Shown one piece after another: positions 55,823-60,926 of a DNA stretch of 64,000 nt. The notes under the pieces were generated by a model, which was not told the origin of the DNA, ran no database searches, and saw only the letters and a list, made by a program, of their open reading frames with translations. Location: the NCBI RefSeq assembly GCF_003150835.1, contig NZ_CP029479.1:1116001-1180000 (forward strand). Reading direction: 5' to 3'. The DNA is from Phenylobacterium parvum (GTDB taxonomy: Bacteria > Pseudomonadota > Alphaproteobacteria > Caulobacterales > Caulobacteraceae). The position numbers and the translations under genes are program-made. Positions within the stretch are counted from its first letter, which is position 1. Each line of letters starts with the position of its first letter.

Positions 55823-56749
55823 TCACCCAAGTCCAATCTCCCTGAGTCGCTCGGCGAGGAAGTCCCCCGCCGTGACCGGGGGCAGTGGGGGCCGGGCGCT
55901 GCGGCAGGAGGGGAGGGCGTCCAGCGACAGGTCCGAGTGCGGGTGAAGGAAGAAGGGCATCGAGTAGCGACTGACATTGGGGCCGTCAGGGTTCACCACC
56001 CGATGGGTTGTCGCCGGGATCACCCCATTGGTCAGGCGGGCCAGCATGTCGCCGGAGTCCACGATCAGCTTGCCCGGCTCTGTCTCCACGGCCAGCCAGC
56101 CGCCATCGCGGTCGAGGAGTTGCAGGCCTGCGCCGCGCGCCGCCACCAGGATGGTCAGGAAGTTGATGTCCTCGTGGGCTGCAGACCTGACGGCGCCGGC
56201 CGGCGCGTCCGCGGGGACAGGCGGGTAATGGAGCAGCCGCAGGATCGAGGGGCCGTGGCGGACCCGGTCCTCGAACCAGTCCTCCGGCAGGTCCAGGGAC
56301 GGCGCGAGGGCCGCGAGCAGGAGGCGGCCGGTCTGGTCCAGGCCCTGGTAGAGGGCCTCGAAGGTCACGCGGAATCCCTCGGGCGACTCCGGCCAGACAT
56401 TCGGCGGCAGCGGCTCGACCGCCAGCGCCTCCGGCGAGGGTTCGCGGCCGATTTGCCAGAATTCCTTTAGGTCCGGTGCGCGGCTGTCCCGGGCGTGCTC
56501 GGCGCCGAAGGGCGTGTAGCCCCTCAGGCCCCCGGCGAGCGCGCCCTTGACGGCCAGGGGCTGCCTGAAGAGGGCTGCGGACTGGGCGTAGGCTTGGTCC
56601 AGGAGGTCGGTGGGAACATTGTGGTCGGCCAGGACGACGAAGCCCCAGCGGCGGAGGCTGGCGAACAGGTCCGACCGGAACCGTGCGCGGGCGCCGGGGT
56701 CTCCGCCGGTGAAATCCGAGAGGCGCAGTTCGGGCACCGTCCGGCTCAT
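55823..56749 (-). CDS. 2-Oxoglutarate/Fe(II) oxygenase, isopenicillin N synthase family
   Basis: A 308-residue non-heme iron oxygenase of the isopenicillin N synthase-like family. The iron ligands are H192 and D194 (AAHEDINFLT) and H249 (ATTHRVVNP); R261 in RYSMPFF is the residue that usually binds 2-oxoglutarate. The gene overlaps ribokinase by 4 nt at the end of a nucleoside salvage run. This family includes thymine 7-hydroxylase, so a base or nucleoside substrate is a fair guess; gibberellin- or antibiotic-type roles are other options. Confidence 0.87.
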   Translation of the reverse strand: MSRTVPELRLSDFTGGDPGARARFRSDLFASLRRWGFVVLADHNVPTDLLDQAYAQSAALFRQPLAVKGALAGGLRGYTPFGAEHARDSRAPDLKEFWQIGREPSPEALAVEPLPPNVWPESPEGFRVTFEALYQGLDQTGRLLLAALAPSLDLPEDWFEDRVRHGPSILRLLHYPPVPADAPAGAVRSAAHEDINFLTILVAARGAGLQLLDRDGGWLAVETEPGKLIVDSGDMLARLTNGVIPATTHRVVNPDGPNVSRYSMPFFLHPHSDLSLDALPSCRSARPPLPPVTAGDFLAERLREIGLG

Positions 56750-57609
56750 GATCCTTCTCCTGAAAGCAGCGCCTCGACGTCCTGGCGGCGCGGGCAGGCA
56801 GGCTGTGCGCCTGGCCGGGTCGTGGACAAGGCTGCAGCGACGCAGGCGAACCGCAGGGCCTCGGAGTCGCTGCGCCCTTCCAGGAGGGCGACCACCAGGG
56901 CCGCCGTGAACACATCACCCGCCCCCGTCGCGTCCACGGGTTCGACACGGGGCGGTTGGGCCTGTGCAGTCAGACTTCCCCTCCGGAAAAGCTGTGCGCC
57001 CGCGGCCCCGAGGGTGACGGCGAGAGCGCCGCCGATCCTGGCCGCCGCAGCGCCCAGGGCCTCGGCTTCGATCTGGTTCACCACCACCAGGTCCGCCCGC
57101 TCCAGGCAGTCCTGTGGAAGCGCGGCGAAGGGCGCCAGGTTCAGCGCCACGAATCCCTCCGCCCGGCGCACCGCCGCGGCTACGACGTCGAGCGGACATT
57201 CCAGCTGGCAGAGCAGGGCGCGGTCGATACCCGCGGGAAGGTCCCCCGGTGTCGGAAGGGCGTTGGCGCCGGAGGCGACGAGAATCTGGTTCTCCCCCGC
57301 TCCGTCGACGCCGATCAGGGCCACGCCGGTAGTCGCGCCGGGCAGGCGGGTCACCCCCGTCAAGTCCACGCCCTCGGCCTCCAGGAGCGCCAGGGCCTCG
57401 TCGGCGAAGGCGTCGTCCCCCACGCGCGCCCAGAGCCGGACCTCCGCGCCCAGGCGGGCGAGGGCCAGGGCCTGGTTGGCCCCCTTGCCGCCGGGATGGC
57501 GTTGCAGGGTGGCGCCGATCACGGTTTCTCCCGGGCGCGGCAGGGTGGGCGCCGTCGCCACGATGTCGAGATTCACCGACCCGACCACCAGGACGCTTGC
57601 GGCCTTCAC
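56746..57609 (-). CDS. rbsK: Ribokinase
   Basis: A PfkB-family sugar kinase that would phosphorylate ribose to ribose-5-phosphate. The 287-residue protein has the opening VLVVGSVNLDIVA, the substrate block RHPGGKGANQALALARLGA (38-56) and the catalytic VDATGAGDVFTAAL with its aspartate. It overlaps the nucleoside hydrolase and oxygenase genes by 4 nt each, so ribose released from nucleosides is the likely substrate. Confidence 0.9.
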   Translation of the reverse strand: MKAASVLVVGSVNLDIVATAPTLPRPGETVIGATLQRHPGGKGANQALALARLGAEVRLWARVGDDAFADEALALLEAEGVDLTGVTRLPGATTGVALIGVDGAGENQILVASGANALPTPGDLPAGIDRALLCQLECPLDVVAAAVRRAEGFVALNLAPFAALPQDCLERADLVVVNQIEAEALGAAAARIGGALAVTLGAAGAQLFRRGSLTAQAQPPRVEPVDATGAGDVFTAALVVALLEGRSDSEALRFACVAAALSTTRPGAQPACPRRQDVEALLSGEGS

Positions 57610-58550
57610 GCGCCGCGTCCGAGAAGGTCGCAGATCAGGTCAAAGGCCCCGTCCGAATCCGCTCCCGTCGCCCAGCGGGCGTTGGCGGCTCGCTGTTCGC
57701 CCAGGCGGAACTCCACGGCGGTGTGGCCAAGGGTCAGGGGGGACTCCGTCTCTATGGCGAGGTGGCAGTCCCGAAGGGTGAAGAGATGGGGGGCCAGCAG
57801 CCACAGGATCACGCACGGGTCATGCAGGGGCGGAGGTCCGCCGGTTCCCAGCTCAACCTCGGTCCGGGCGCTGAAGGCCATCAGCTGGCTGGCGACCTTG
57901 GCCGGCGTGTTGGTGATGCCGGCGATGCGCGCCCTGCGGGCCTCTGTGGCCGTGACCTGGTGGGTGACGTCCAGCCCCATCAGGACCAGGTCCACGCCGG
58001 ACCGGGCCACGATGTCTGCGGCATGGGGGTCGGCGTGGATGTTGTACTCGGCGGAGGCGGTGATGTTGCCGCCTTCGCGCCGCGCCCCGCCCATGGCGAC
58101 CACGCGGCCGATCCGGGGACCGATGTCGGGAGCCGTTTGGAGGGCCCTGGCCAGGTTGGTCATGGGTCCCGTCACCGCCAGGGTGACCTCGCCCGCGGGG
58201 CGAGCCCGAAGGGTGCGGACCAGGAAATCGACGGCGCCTTCCTCTTCCGGCCCCCGCAAGGGCTGGCCCACCGGCAGGTCGCCGAGGCCCGTGGGGCCGT
58301 GGAAATGATCGGCCGCAACGGGCGCGCGGACCAGGGGGCGAGCCTCGCCGGCATGGACCGGAATGTCCGGCCGGCCGGCGATCTCCCGGACCAGGCAGGC
58401 GTTCCGCGCCGTCAGGTCGCCGCCGACATTGCCGGCGACCGTGGTGATGGCCAAGACGTCCAGACGCTCCGGCGCCGCGAGGGCCAGAAGCAGGGCGACC
58501 GTGTCGTCGACCCCGGGGTCGCAGTCGATGATGAGGGGGAGGCCGGGCAT
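57606..58550 (-). CDS. Nucleoside hydrolase
   Basis: A calcium-dependent N-ribohydrolase that splits nucleosides into base and ribose. The 314-residue protein has the metal-binding IDCDPGVDD at 8-16 and further family blocks VAGNVGGDLTARNA and TGPMTNLARAL. The protein has no signal peptide, so it acts on internal nucleosides. It begins a three-gene unit with ribokinase and the oxygenase. Preference for purines, pyrimidines or inosine cannot be read from the sequence. Confidence 0.92.
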   Translation of the reverse strand: MPGLPLIIDCDPGVDDTVALLLALAAPERLDVLAITTVAGNVGGDLTARNACLVREIAGRPDIPVHAGEARPLVRAPVAADHFHGPTGLGDLPVGQPLRGPEEEGAVDFLVRTLRARPAGEVTLAVTGPMTNLARALQTAPDIGPRIGRVVAMGGARREGGNITASAEYNIHADPHAADIVARSGVDLVLMGLDVTHQVTATEARRARIAGITNTPAKVASQLMAFSARTEVELGTGGPPPLHDPCVILWLLAPHLFTLRDCHLAIETESPLTLGHTAVEFRLGEQRAANARWATGADSDGAFDLICDLLGRGA

Positions 58551-58604: not shown

Positions 58605-60254
58605 TCAGTTATCCCAGAGGATATACTCCTGACCCGCCTTCTGCGGCCGTCCGGAGGGCTGGTCGATGAAGACCGGCCCCTGCAGCAGCGAGGGCCAGAG
58701 CGGCTTCACGCTGCGGGCGTCCTGCTGGGCCAGGAGGGCGAGCATGGCCTTGACCCGCTCGGGTTCCTTGGTCGACAGGTCGGTCTGCTCGGTGGGGTCA
58801 ACGGCGAGGTTATGCAGCCAGACCTTCGAGCGGGCCTCGTTGCTCTGCAGCTTCCAGTCCCCGTCGCGCACGGCCTTGTACTGGCCGGATCGCCAGAAGA
58901 GTGTCTGGTGCGGACGTTCCGTCTTCTCGCCCTTGACGTAGGGCAGCAGGTTCACGCCGTCGATCTCGCGGTCTGTGGGAAGGGCGGCTCCGGCCGCTCC
59001 GGCGACGGTCGAGAAGACGTCGATATGCCCCACAGGGTAGGGGTAGCGCTGGCCAGAGGGCATCCCCTTGGGCCACTTCATCAGGAAGGGCGTTTGGATC
59101 CCGCCCTCGAAGAAGGTCGACTTCCAGCCCCGGTAGGGCTTGTTGATGTCGTCAAGCCCGATGTAGCCGGCGCCGCCGTTATCGCTGGTGAAGATGATGA
59201 GGGTGTCCTTCTCGAGGCCCTCGTCACGCAGGGTTTGGAGGAGCTTGCCGACATTCCTGTCCAGGTTTCGGACCATGGCGGCGTAGACCCTCAAGCGATG
59301 GTCCTTGATCTGCGGCAGGGCGTCGTAGTCCTCCCGCGTCGCCTGCAGGGGCGTGTGGATAGCGTTCGGCGCGAAGTACATGAAGAACGGACGGTTGCGG
59401 TTGGCCTTCACCGCCCGGACCGCCTCATCGGTGAGGTAGTCGGTCATGTAGCCCTTCGGGGCGAACATCTCCGAGCCGTTGTACTGGACCATGTAGGGCA
59501 GGTTCGGCCACAGGAAGCGGTCGATGGGGTCCCAGTCCTGCTTGGAGTTGACGACGCCCTTGTCCTTCACGGGAAGGAAGAGCGAGCCGCCGGCCATGAA
59601 GCCGAGGCTTTCGTCGAACCCCCGGTCCTCGGGCCGGGAGCCCGGTTTCGCGCCCAGGTGCCACTTGCCAAAATGCAGGGTGTGGTAGCCCTGCTGTTTC
59701 AGCACGTTGGCGATGGTGATCTCGTTGGCGGGAACCGCCATCGAGTCCATCGGGGGCACATCCTTGACCCGATCCTTGAAGAACCGGGGACTGACGATGG
59801 AGCCGCCCTCGGCCTCGGTGCCGACCATCCGCTGGAAGGCGACCGGCGCCGGCGTGAACTCGAAGCCGAAGCGGGTCGCATACCGCCCCGTCATAAGTGA
59901 GGCGCGGGACGGCGCGCAGGTCGCGTTACCAGCGTACCCATTCTCGAAAATCACCCCATCCTTTCCGAGCGAGTCCATGTTCGGGGTCGGCACCGCACCG
60001 CCGGCGACGCCGCCGTTCAGGGTCAGGTCGTTGAAGCCCATGTCGTCGACCAGGATGAGGATGACGTTGGGCTGACGACGGACCGGAGGGGGATCTGCGG
60101 GTCCCTCCAGCCAGGTCACCGGCCGGTTGGGGGCCACGTCGGGCAGGCGCGCCTGGGCAATGAGGCCAAGGACGGTCGAGCGGTTGCTCCAGGCGAGGGC
60201 GCCTATGCCCACGAGGAGCAGCAGGACGAGAGCAAGGACTTTCAGGATCTTCAT
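58605..60254 (-). CDS. Membrane-anchored sulfatase
   Basis: A 549-residue type I sulfatase of the alkaline phosphatase superfamily. The active-site motif C113-A-P-S-R is the cysteine form that must be converted to formylglycine. D70 and D71 in LVDDMGFND, and FTSDNGGAGY later on, are metal ligands. The N-terminus (about 5-22) is one hydrophobic segment without a clear cleavage site, so the enzyme is probably tethered facing the periplasm. No formylglycine-generating enzyme is in the window. It begins 12 nt after the isomerase gene. The sulfated substrate is unknown. Confidence 0.92.
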   Translation of the reverse strand: MKILKVLALVLLLLVGIGALAWSNRSTVLGLIAQARLPDVAPNRPVTWLEGPADPPPVRRQPNVILILVDDMGFNDLTLNGGVAGGAVPTPNMDSLGKDGVIFENGYAGNATCAPSRASLMTGRYATRFGFEFTPAPVAFQRMVGTEAEGGSIVSPRFFKDRVKDVPPMDSMAVPANEITIANVLKQQGYHTLHFGKWHLGAKPGSRPEDRGFDESLGFMAGGSLFLPVKDKGVVNSKQDWDPIDRFLWPNLPYMVQYNGSEMFAPKGYMTDYLTDEAVRAVKANRNRPFFMYFAPNAIHTPLQATREDYDALPQIKDHRLRVYAAMVRNLDRNVGKLLQTLRDEGLEKDTLIIFTSDNGGAGYIGLDDINKPYRGWKSTFFEGGIQTPFLMKWPKGMPSGQRYPYPVGHIDVFSTVAGAAGAALPTDREIDGVNLLPYVKGEKTERPHQTLFWRSGQYKAVRDGDWKLQSNEARSKVWLHNLAVDPTEQTDLSTKEPERVKAMLALLAQQDARSVKPLWPSLLQGPVFIDQPSGRPQKAGQEYILWDN

Positions 60255-60266
60255 CGGTGCGGTTCC

Positions 60267-60926
60267 TCAGGTGGTCTTGCGGGGGGCGAGGCCCTGCTGT
60301 TCCAGGCGCCAGCGGAGCGTATCCACCCTGTCCTGGCCAAAGAAGGGCTCGTTATTGAAAACCATCATGGGGACCCCGTAGTGGCCCCCGGCGCGCTGGG
60401 CGTCCTGGTTGTCCTCGATGACGGCGTGGAGGCGATCAGCCTCTGTCTCGACGCGGGCGAAGAGATCGTCCGGATCCAGCCCCGCCCGGCGGGTCGCCTC
60501 GGCCAGGTGATCGCCCTCGTGCCAGTTGTCGACCTGGCCGCTCCAGATCATCGCGCTGACCTCCTTGAGGAAGGGCAGTCCCCGGCCGGCCTCGGCCGCA
60601 AGCACTCCCAGGCGAGTCAGGCGATGGATGTGGGGTTGCTCGGCGGGATAGGTCCCGGTCGCCATGTCCATGTAGACGGGATCGGGGCGGGGCCAGCGGT
60701 AGGGCATGCCGAGGATCTCGGCCTCCCTGCGGGTATCAAGCATGAGGTACGAGAACCAGAGCGGGTCCCGACCCTCAAAGAAGACCGGGGTGCGCACTGC
60801 GAGGGGATAGACCGGGCGCACCCGGCAACGGACGTCGAACCCGGCTTCCAACTCGAGGAGGCGGGGCGTGATGAGGTACGAGTAAGGGGACCTGAAGGAC
60901 CAGTAGAGGTCGTATTCCAGCGTCAT
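60267..60926 (-). CDS. DsbA-like 2-hydroxychromene-2-carboxylate isomerase family protein
   Basis: A 219-residue thioredoxin-fold protein of the DsbA/HCCA-isomerase (kappa GST) type. The opening LYWSFRSPYSYLITPRLLEL has serine in place of the DsbA CxxC, as in HCCA isomerases. The C-terminal block with AGGHYGVPMMVFNNEPFFGQDRVD is typical. It probably acts on aromatic or glutathione-linked compounds in the cytoplasm. It is the first gene of a minus-strand run that continues with the sulfatase, and is divergent from the small membrane protein. Confidence 0.86.
   Translation of the reverse strand: MTLEYDLYWSFRSPYSYLITPRLLELEAGFDVRCRVRPVYPLAVRTPVFFEGRDPLWFSYLMLDTRREAEILGMPYRWPRPDPVYMDMATGTYPAEQPHIHRLTRLGVLAAEAGRGLPFLKEVSAMIWSGQVDNWHEGDHLAEATRRAGLDPDDLFARVETEADRLHAVIEDNQDAQRAGGHYGVPMMVFNNEPFFGQDRVDTLRWRLEQQGLAPRKTT

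Follow-up and report, generated by a model that had tools for sequence, protein, structure and literature searches.

Fungal thymidine salvage runs through the thymine ribonucleoside, which is hydrolysed to ribose and thymine (PMC4787775; this paper, PMC6278475 and PMC12709175 are used here as excerpts), and a hydroxylase turning thymidine into the thymine ribonucleoside is cited, as a reference title, in the same excerpt. The nucleoside hydrolase RK9NH was reported to convert uridine, 2'-O-methyluridine and 5-methyluridine fully and, in the excerpted results, to leave thymidine, deoxyuridine and deoxycytidine unconverted (PMC6278475), and demethylation of 2'-O-methyl nucleosides by another family of 2-oxoglutarate (2OG) oxygenases was reported in 2025 (PMC12709175). 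Here we analysed three adjoining genes at positions 55,823 to 58,550 of a 64,000-nt stretch of contig NZ_CP029479.1 of Phenylobacterium parvum (positions 1,116,001 to 1,180,000; this whole stretch is called the window). They encode a nucleoside hydrolase of the IU_nuc_hydro family (NH, 314 amino acids, 57606..58550 (-)), a ribokinase-like PfkB kinase (RK, 287 amino acids, 56746..57609 (-)) and a 2OG/Fe(II) oxygenase resembling thymine 7-hydroxylase (T7H) (OX, 308 amino acids, 55823..56749 (-)). A full-text literature search of open-licence papers found no description of such an NH-RK-oxygenase operon. We consider it probable that the trio is a nucleoside-scavenging operon and that OX has a role in nucleoside metabolism; the genes, their conserved order, the single clade formed by the linked oxygenases, a remodelled base-edge pocket and repeated nucleoside-salvage neighbours are established, and the nucleoside link of OX is well supported.

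An earlier note, made from the letters of this DNA alone, had described three genes overlapping by 4 nt per pair, and these coordinates were borne out, with all three on the minus strand: NH and RK share 57606..57609 (-) (GTGA) and RK and OX share 56746..56749 (-) (ATGA), the start codon of RK being GTG because GTGA forms the first of these overlaps. The single unit proposed in the note agrees with the overlaps and with the recurrence of the order across three families, and since identical order recurs there, the packing of the trio is not due to chance. Conservation in other genera, on which the note had staked its idea, was found in 13 genera of these families (g1, g24, g26, g27, g28, g43; g12, g335, g341; g7, g13, g342, g343). 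NH matched IU_nuc_hydro (PF01156) at 1.2e-87 and carries the motif DCDPGVDD at residues 9-16, which we take to be the N-terminal calcium motif of IU-type nucleoside hydrolases; its best NCBIfam model was RihA (250.2 bits, under the curated cut-off of 433), and its nearest solved relative is the pyrimidine-specific RihA (3g5i, 2.9e-64). RK matched PfkB at 3.3e-49, with TIGR02152 as best NCBIfam model (227.8 bits; cut-off 299.65) and ribokinases as nearest solved structures (6znx, 3.8e-59). A nucleoside hydrolase together with a ribokinase is a familiar ribose route, and the succession of NH and RK is coherent in this sense, as the note had also supposed.

The linkage of OX to NH was followed through two larger samples. 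Among 299 genomes of the family, 40 contained OX at E <= 1e-82 and 34 an orthologue (E 1.4e-113 or better and at least 59% identity), and an NH orthologue was present in all 34. Both genes lie on one contig in 33 of the 34; in the remaining genome (G360) the OX contig ends inside RK, which adjoins OX, and one of the 33 (G204) has NH followed by OX after a gap of 46 nt and no RK between them. In the order sample (348 genomes) OX was found in 64 at E <= 1e-95, and all 25 OX genomes of families f1, f3 and f4 were NH-linked against 0 of 39 in family f5, in the stretches read (shared OX sequences place a Caulobacter-named metagenome-assembled genome (MAG) in f1 and Aquisalinus luteolus, Parvularculaceae, in f5). 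Only the window's own genome passed E <= 1e-95 in the class sample of 385 genomes. NH and RK overlap by 4 nt in 17 of 18 measurable loci and by 1 nt in the other one; the 4-nt overlap of RK and OX is usual in the window's genus and was also seen in g7, g26 and g27, with a gap of 9 to 175 nt taking its place in genus g43. In the OX tree, which was built without near-duplicate loci, the NH-linked OX form a single clade (36 of 36 rows, of which two pairs are identical; SH-aLRT 98) standing beside f5 and Bdellovibrionota rows; L102, L113 and L115 were omitted from this tree and from A2 for lack of a clean full OX frame. The distances of NH, RK and OX agree over 21 operons with a Mantel r of 0.84 to 0.91 and none of 2000 permutations as high, the value for NH and OX alone being 0.91 (likewise 0/2000). 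The dependence of the two is one-sided, as NH-RK occurs without OX in 14 loci read (10 in g24, 2 in g1 and 2 in g38), and the OX-less rows are scattered across the NH tree, a distribution that fits repeated loss of OX; L037, from G360, is labelled OX-less in that tree, yet its genome carries OX on another contig.

Some further observations concern the distribution of these genes. NH residues 39, 82, 127, 237 and 264 differ between OX-bearing and most OX-less operons; they were dropped as evidence, being confounded by phylogeny: a single genus supplies 10 of the 14 NH without OX. A second OX paralogue in the window's genome (L071, G000:C1:203132-203998) is 51% identical to OX and lies far from it in the tree; the 11 kb read around it gave no match to NH or RK. 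A contig labelled Janthinobacterium lividum (L115:1-6705) carries an OX fragment 66% identical to that of the window, perhaps through a binning error. Carriage of OX by mobile elements was discarded, there being no OX match among plasmids at 1e-50.

OX matched DIOX_N and 2OG-FeII_Oxy (PF14226 and PF03171), and gave no PF05721 match at 0.001. The residues H192, D194, H249 and R261 claimed in the earlier note were confirmed exactly, and S263 is the second residue of the RxS pair. Its designation as an isopenicillin N synthase (IPNS)-type enzyme holds as a broad annotation and fails as close kinship, since Aspergillus IPNS was matched at 3.8e-12 and T7H at 1.1e-27; the other single-sequence matches were 3oox (2.7e-71) and Pseudomonas 6jyv, titled IPNS (1.2e-23). 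The kinship with T7H raised in the same note was, by comparison, strengthened: a profile of 59 OX sequences placed 3oox first (3.7e-127) and Neurospora T7H second (3.9e-67) among solved structures, and the AlphaFold2 model of OX (mean pLDDT 92) aligned best with T7H (Z 37.1, root-mean-square deviation 2.2 A over 293 residues; 3oox Z 35.9), which makes T7H the closest characterised protein both in profile and in fold. Foldseek ranked 3oox first and T7H next. In the alignment the T7H iron triad His214, Asp216 and His271 corresponds to H192, D194 and H249 of OX, and the 2OG contacts Arg190, Leu192, Tyr194, Arg286 and Ser288 to R171, L173, Y175, R261 and S263. Because triad and contacts are both present, OX is predicted to depend on 2OG; the predicted contacts are kept in 33 of 33 linked OX, except L173 in 32 of 33. 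The stacking Phe292 of T7H is also found, as F267, but the equivalents of Phe292 and Arg190 do not vary in any of the five OX groups compared and are therefore not diagnostic. The base contacts Asn87, Glu122 and Tyr217 are replaced by L75, Q99 and I195, the last in 33 of 33 linked OX, and Asn294 is replaced by H269.

Two of these replacements turned out to be a mark of the operon clade. When 46 linked OX, including those of the window and G360, were compared with 59 sister OX (different sequences only; 23 sisters outside f5 were hand-picked from branches next to the linked clade, and Bacteroidota, Xanthomonadales and Sphingomonadales rows were left out), two of the 308 positions, 75 and 99, separated both sets fully. 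Position 75 is L in 23, M in 22 and R in 1 of the linked sequences and Q in all 59 sisters; position 99 is Q in 45 and R in 1 against H in all 59. Both align with Asn87 and Glu122 of T7H at the N1/O2 edge of thymine, these two residues contacting thymine O2 and, through water, N1 in the excerpt (PMC4787775). By analogy, this edge is where a nucleoside would carry its sugar. In addition, the loop 68-76 is 8 residues long in 46 of 46 linked OX; among 125 unlinked ones it measures 10 to 12 residues in 124, and the remaining sequence is a fragment. A hand estimate, made post hoc, gives about 2 in 10,000 for two random positions falling on two of the five substrate contacts of T7H other than those to 2OG and iron. 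Over all different sequences without the window, positions 75/99 read MQ 22, LQ 20, RQ 1 and LR 1 in the linked set (n=44), and QH 73, AH 41 and QQ 8, with KH, EH, a fragment and LQ once each, in the unlinked set (n=126), whose sole LQ sequence is that of G360. Judged from these alignments, the base-edge pocket is remodelled in the NH-linked clade.

A second line of evidence comes from the genes around OX. A scan of genome contigs for OX relatives gave at least 578 confirmed stretches, and neighbours were looked at in 80 named loci among these, 77 of them non-trio (open reading frame calls near the locus were heuristic in several scans, and neighbour gaps of -304, -909, -169 and -20 are probably start-codon artefacts). 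The concentrative nucleoside transporter NupC directly precedes NH in 8 trio loci (5/7 in f3, 3/7 in f4): five g12 loci read NupC-NH-RK-OX-TK, with a thymidine kinase (TK) over its curated cut-off after OX, and three of the seven f4 loci read NupC-NH-RK-OX. Among the non-trio loci, a Polyangia contig (L160) has the order TK-NupC-OX, the genes lying 3 and 31 nt apart, and in a gammaproteobacterial MAG contig (L118:5612-8862) a cytidine deaminase (CDA) gene overlaps OX by 4 nt and faces NupC and a uridine kinase (UDK), which is a compact pyrimidine-salvage cluster. Neither L160 nor L118 gave an NH or RK match in roughly 13 kb examined, and therefore the OX substrate there need not be a product of NH. 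The order LOG-NupC-OX was found in the Sphingomonadales-like contigs L129 and L137, and in L125, where an additional LOG-like gene separates NupC from OX; L125 and L137 also show a PfkB kinase upstream and a CDA-like match downstream on the other strand. NupC also stands before OX in L130, L159 and L167. The non-trio rows with nucleoside context are spread over three separate parts of the OX tree, L118 as a long branch, and when neighbours were clustered (80 named loci and 13 others), cluster 18, which extends across separate lineages, was NupC. The occurrence of OX relatives in nucleoside-salvage clusters of some unrelated bacteria suggests an oxidative step in salvage, through which DNA- or RNA-derived nucleosides that could not otherwise be used would probably become digestible, and the TK, NupC, CDA and UDK neighbours narrow the candidate substrates to pyrimidine nucleosides.

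In L125:2094-6876 and L137:2840-6879 there is one run of genes for a PfkB kinase, a LOG-type nucleosidase, NupC and OX, which could be a non-homologous stand-in for NH and ribokinase. The gene of the tRNA methyltransferase TrmO precedes OX in two Bdellovibrio-like contigs (L097:266-1018, L100:5187-5903), and in L117 OX is followed by a sodium:solute symporter whose substrate is not assigned. A conserved partner of OX in other phyla was rejected, neighbour sets being mostly lineage-specific.

Together with the position of the pocket change, these neighbourhoods lead to a tentative reading, to which we give a probability of about 0.38: OX may act on intact pyrimidine nucleosides, 2'-deoxy or 2'-O-methyl, and yield ribonucleosides cleavable by NH. 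An imported nucleoside, probably a pyrimidine one, would meet OX before NH, and OX would oxidise the 2' position of the sugar, either by 2'-hydroxylation of thymidine or deoxyuridine or by removal of a 2'-O-methyl group. The ribonucleoside formed would then be usable by ribo-specific enzymes, here NH and elsewhere a uridine kinase or a kinase with LOG; NH would split it into base and ribose, and RK would convert ribose to ribose 5-phosphate. NH-RK, uridine kinase and kinase with LOG all amount to ribo-specific processing. OX is taken as a modifier of the imported pyrimidine nucleoside because uptake, ribo-specific processing and OX recur together and base release does not always accompany them, and the 2' position is the natural target because RK9NH uses ribonucleosides and 2'-O-methyluridine and not deoxynucleosides, and because the deoxyribose-phosphate aldolase gene deoC was not found in the window's genome. 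The substrate and the position attacked, and with them 2OG dependence and action on the intact nucleoside, are what we infer. In a wider form OX would be a bacterial pyrimidine (deoxy)nucleoside 2'-oxygenase, with NH-RK channelling modified nucleosides, or those from DNA, into the pentose phosphate pathway with no need for deoxyribose-phosphate aldolase, a bacterial counterpart of the fungal activity with several operon designs in different phyla; to this full extent the proposal is unlikely.

Several results weigh against action at the 2' position of an intact nucleoside. No sequence feature read points to the 2' position as such, and RK9NH cleaves 2'-O-methyluridine without demethylation (excerpt of PMC6278475). 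The pocket switch amounts to a single evolutionary event, and all 8 QQ rows are Bacteroidota and unlinked, so that Q99 alone is untied to NH. Repeated loss of OX is a further such point, as are the f5 OX (Parvularculaceae-like), the nearest relatives of the linked OX, which are unlinked in 39 of 39 loci; 12 of the 13 f5 OX genomes searched had no NH match, and therefore the ancestral OX was independent of NH. In the 64 kb of the window there is no match to NupC, TK, CDA, UDK or LOG, and for the trio loci of f1 NupC was seen only near that of L039, on the opposite strand. Only 8 of the 77 non-trio named loci have NupC (a raw count, among the matches listed), 20 further neighbours annotated from 16 other loci included no recognisable nucleoside gene (4 of the 20 matched nothing), and most of the wide OX family, as far as it was looked at, stands beside other genes such as TrmO, phosphomannomutase and peptidases. 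deoC is present in 3 of 74 family genomes, namely 3 of 34 with OX and 0 of 40 without; it is thus missing equally where OX is absent, and all three deoC genomes carry OX. On these counts OX as a simple substitute for deoC is unsupported. Finally, a thymidine phosphorylase-family gene over its cut-off is present in the window's genome.

It is unlikely that the substrate of OX belongs to unrelated housekeeping, with a promoter merely shared with NH-RK and the nucleoside neighbourhoods a coincidence of gene order. The mostly different neighbours of the wide family, the OX relatives in genomes without NH and the window without a nucleoside transporter match would all agree with such a role, but it leaves the constant pairing of OX with NH in the family (34/34), the occurrence of NupC, TK, CDA, UDK or LOG beside OX in separate branches and the full change of the operon clade at two pocket positions to chance.

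Quite unlikely is the oxidative route for the released base suggested in the earlier note, in which OX would oxidise the base set free by NH, thymine first, as T7H does in fungi. The close relationship to T7H, the kept cosubstrate residues and stacking phenylalanine, and the proximity of NH to the pyrimidine-specific RihA speak for it, and in the excerpt the T7H mutants N87A and E122A were not severely impaired in their action on thymine (PMC4787775), which also counts against our preferred nucleoside substrate. However, the base contacts Asn87, Glu122 and Tyr217 are lost, the phenylalanine and Arg190 equivalents that remain are those invariant in every OX group, the genome's six PF04909 proteins gave no match to any chain named isoorotate decarboxylase at the thresholds used (the presence of such chains in the library was unchecked), and the salvage units of L160 and L118 contain OX without any NH in the locus. 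On the lost contacts, the missing decarboxylase match and the NH-free nucleoside loci, the base route is unsupported.

Oxidation of the intact nucleoside at its base, by methyl hydroxylation or demethylation of a modified nucleoside such as 5-methyluridine or an N-methylated one released when tRNA is turned over, seems improbable. It would draw on identical nucleoside-salvage contexts and on the chemistry of T7H at the C5 methyl group (excerpt of PMC4787775), and the pocket is changed at the N1/O2 edge, on the sugar side, so that, with the base bound as in T7H, C5 would point towards the iron. But it leaves unexplained why OX recurs with mostly ribo-specific enzymes and repeatedly has a thymidine kinase neighbour, and a modified-nucleoside substrate has no direct evidence. 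Most improbable of all is cleavage of a 2'-O-methyl nucleoside by NH with demethylation of the released 2-O-methylribose by OX ahead of RK: nucleoside hydrolases cleaving 2'-O-methyl substrates are known, and genes for a ribokinase and an aldolase stand near a relative of one of them (excerpt of PMC6278475), but loci that have no NH or RK also combine OX with NupC and a thymidine or uridine kinase, and in G204 it follows NH with no RK between them.

Of the genes next to the trio, a sulfatase gene (58605..60254 (-)) lies upstream of NH with a gap of 54 nt, and a DsbA-like thioredoxin-domain gene accompanies it on the same strand (both within 58605-60926 (-)). The two genes accompany the trio in close relatives only (L086 and L087; in L089 the sulfatase is cut by the contig end), and the sulfatase is probably outside the functional unit. 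In one sub-lineage of the window's genus a GC-rich inverted repeat (L088:8640-8690) separates a TonB-dependent receptor gene from NH; their co-transcription is therefore doubtful and the receptor was rejected as an operon member. Elsewhere in the genome the PF01048 proteins are AMP nucleosidase-like and methylthioadenosine/S-adenosylhomocysteine nucleosidase-like only, and D-hydantoinase was dismissed after nine weak model matches, none of them over the cut-off.

If OX works on nucleosides, bacteria without deoC would gain an oxygen-dependent use of deoxynucleosides or 2'-O-methyl nucleosides, and the wider OX family, including 3oox, would gain a testable substrate class. With IPNS, OX shares the superfamily and the HxD...H...RxS frame, but IPNS is more remote (Aspergillus IPNS 3.8e-12; Z about 31 against 37.1 for T7H), and OX has a predicted 2OG site. 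The closest solved structure by sequence is CC_0200 of Caulobacter crescentus (PDB 3oox, 2.7e-71), whose function is not assigned; L071 and the Sphingomonadales relatives occupy a separate distant branch, mostly with Ala75/His99 and a long loop, 3oox itself being outside the tree. The Neurospora crassa T7H (PDB 5c3p-5c3s) has the fold of OX over 293 residues, the iron triad and the 2OG residues in common with it, but the two are only about 29% identical, Asn87, Glu122, Tyr217 and Asn294 having become L75, Q99, I195 and H269, and OX is bacterial and operon-encoded, with a loop 68-76 shortened relative to sister OX and no isoorotate decarboxylase candidate recognised. The likeness extends to the fungal thymidine salvage pathway, where hydrolysis of the nucleoside to ribose and thymine precedes T7H (excerpt of PMC4787775). 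The 2'-O-methyl nucleoside demethylases FJS and PHYHD1 are, according to the excerpt of PMC12709175, also 2OG oxygenases that attack the 2' position of free nucleosides and release the ribonucleoside, but they belong to PF05721 and OX to PF03171 and PF14226. The RK9NH and AgNH clusters likewise combine a nucleoside hydrolase with sugar-processing genes, in relatives a ribokinase too, for the use of 2'-O-methyl nucleosides (excerpt of PMC6278475); the partner in those clusters is a deoxyribose-phosphate aldolase-like gene, whereas in the operon described here it is a 2OG oxygenase.

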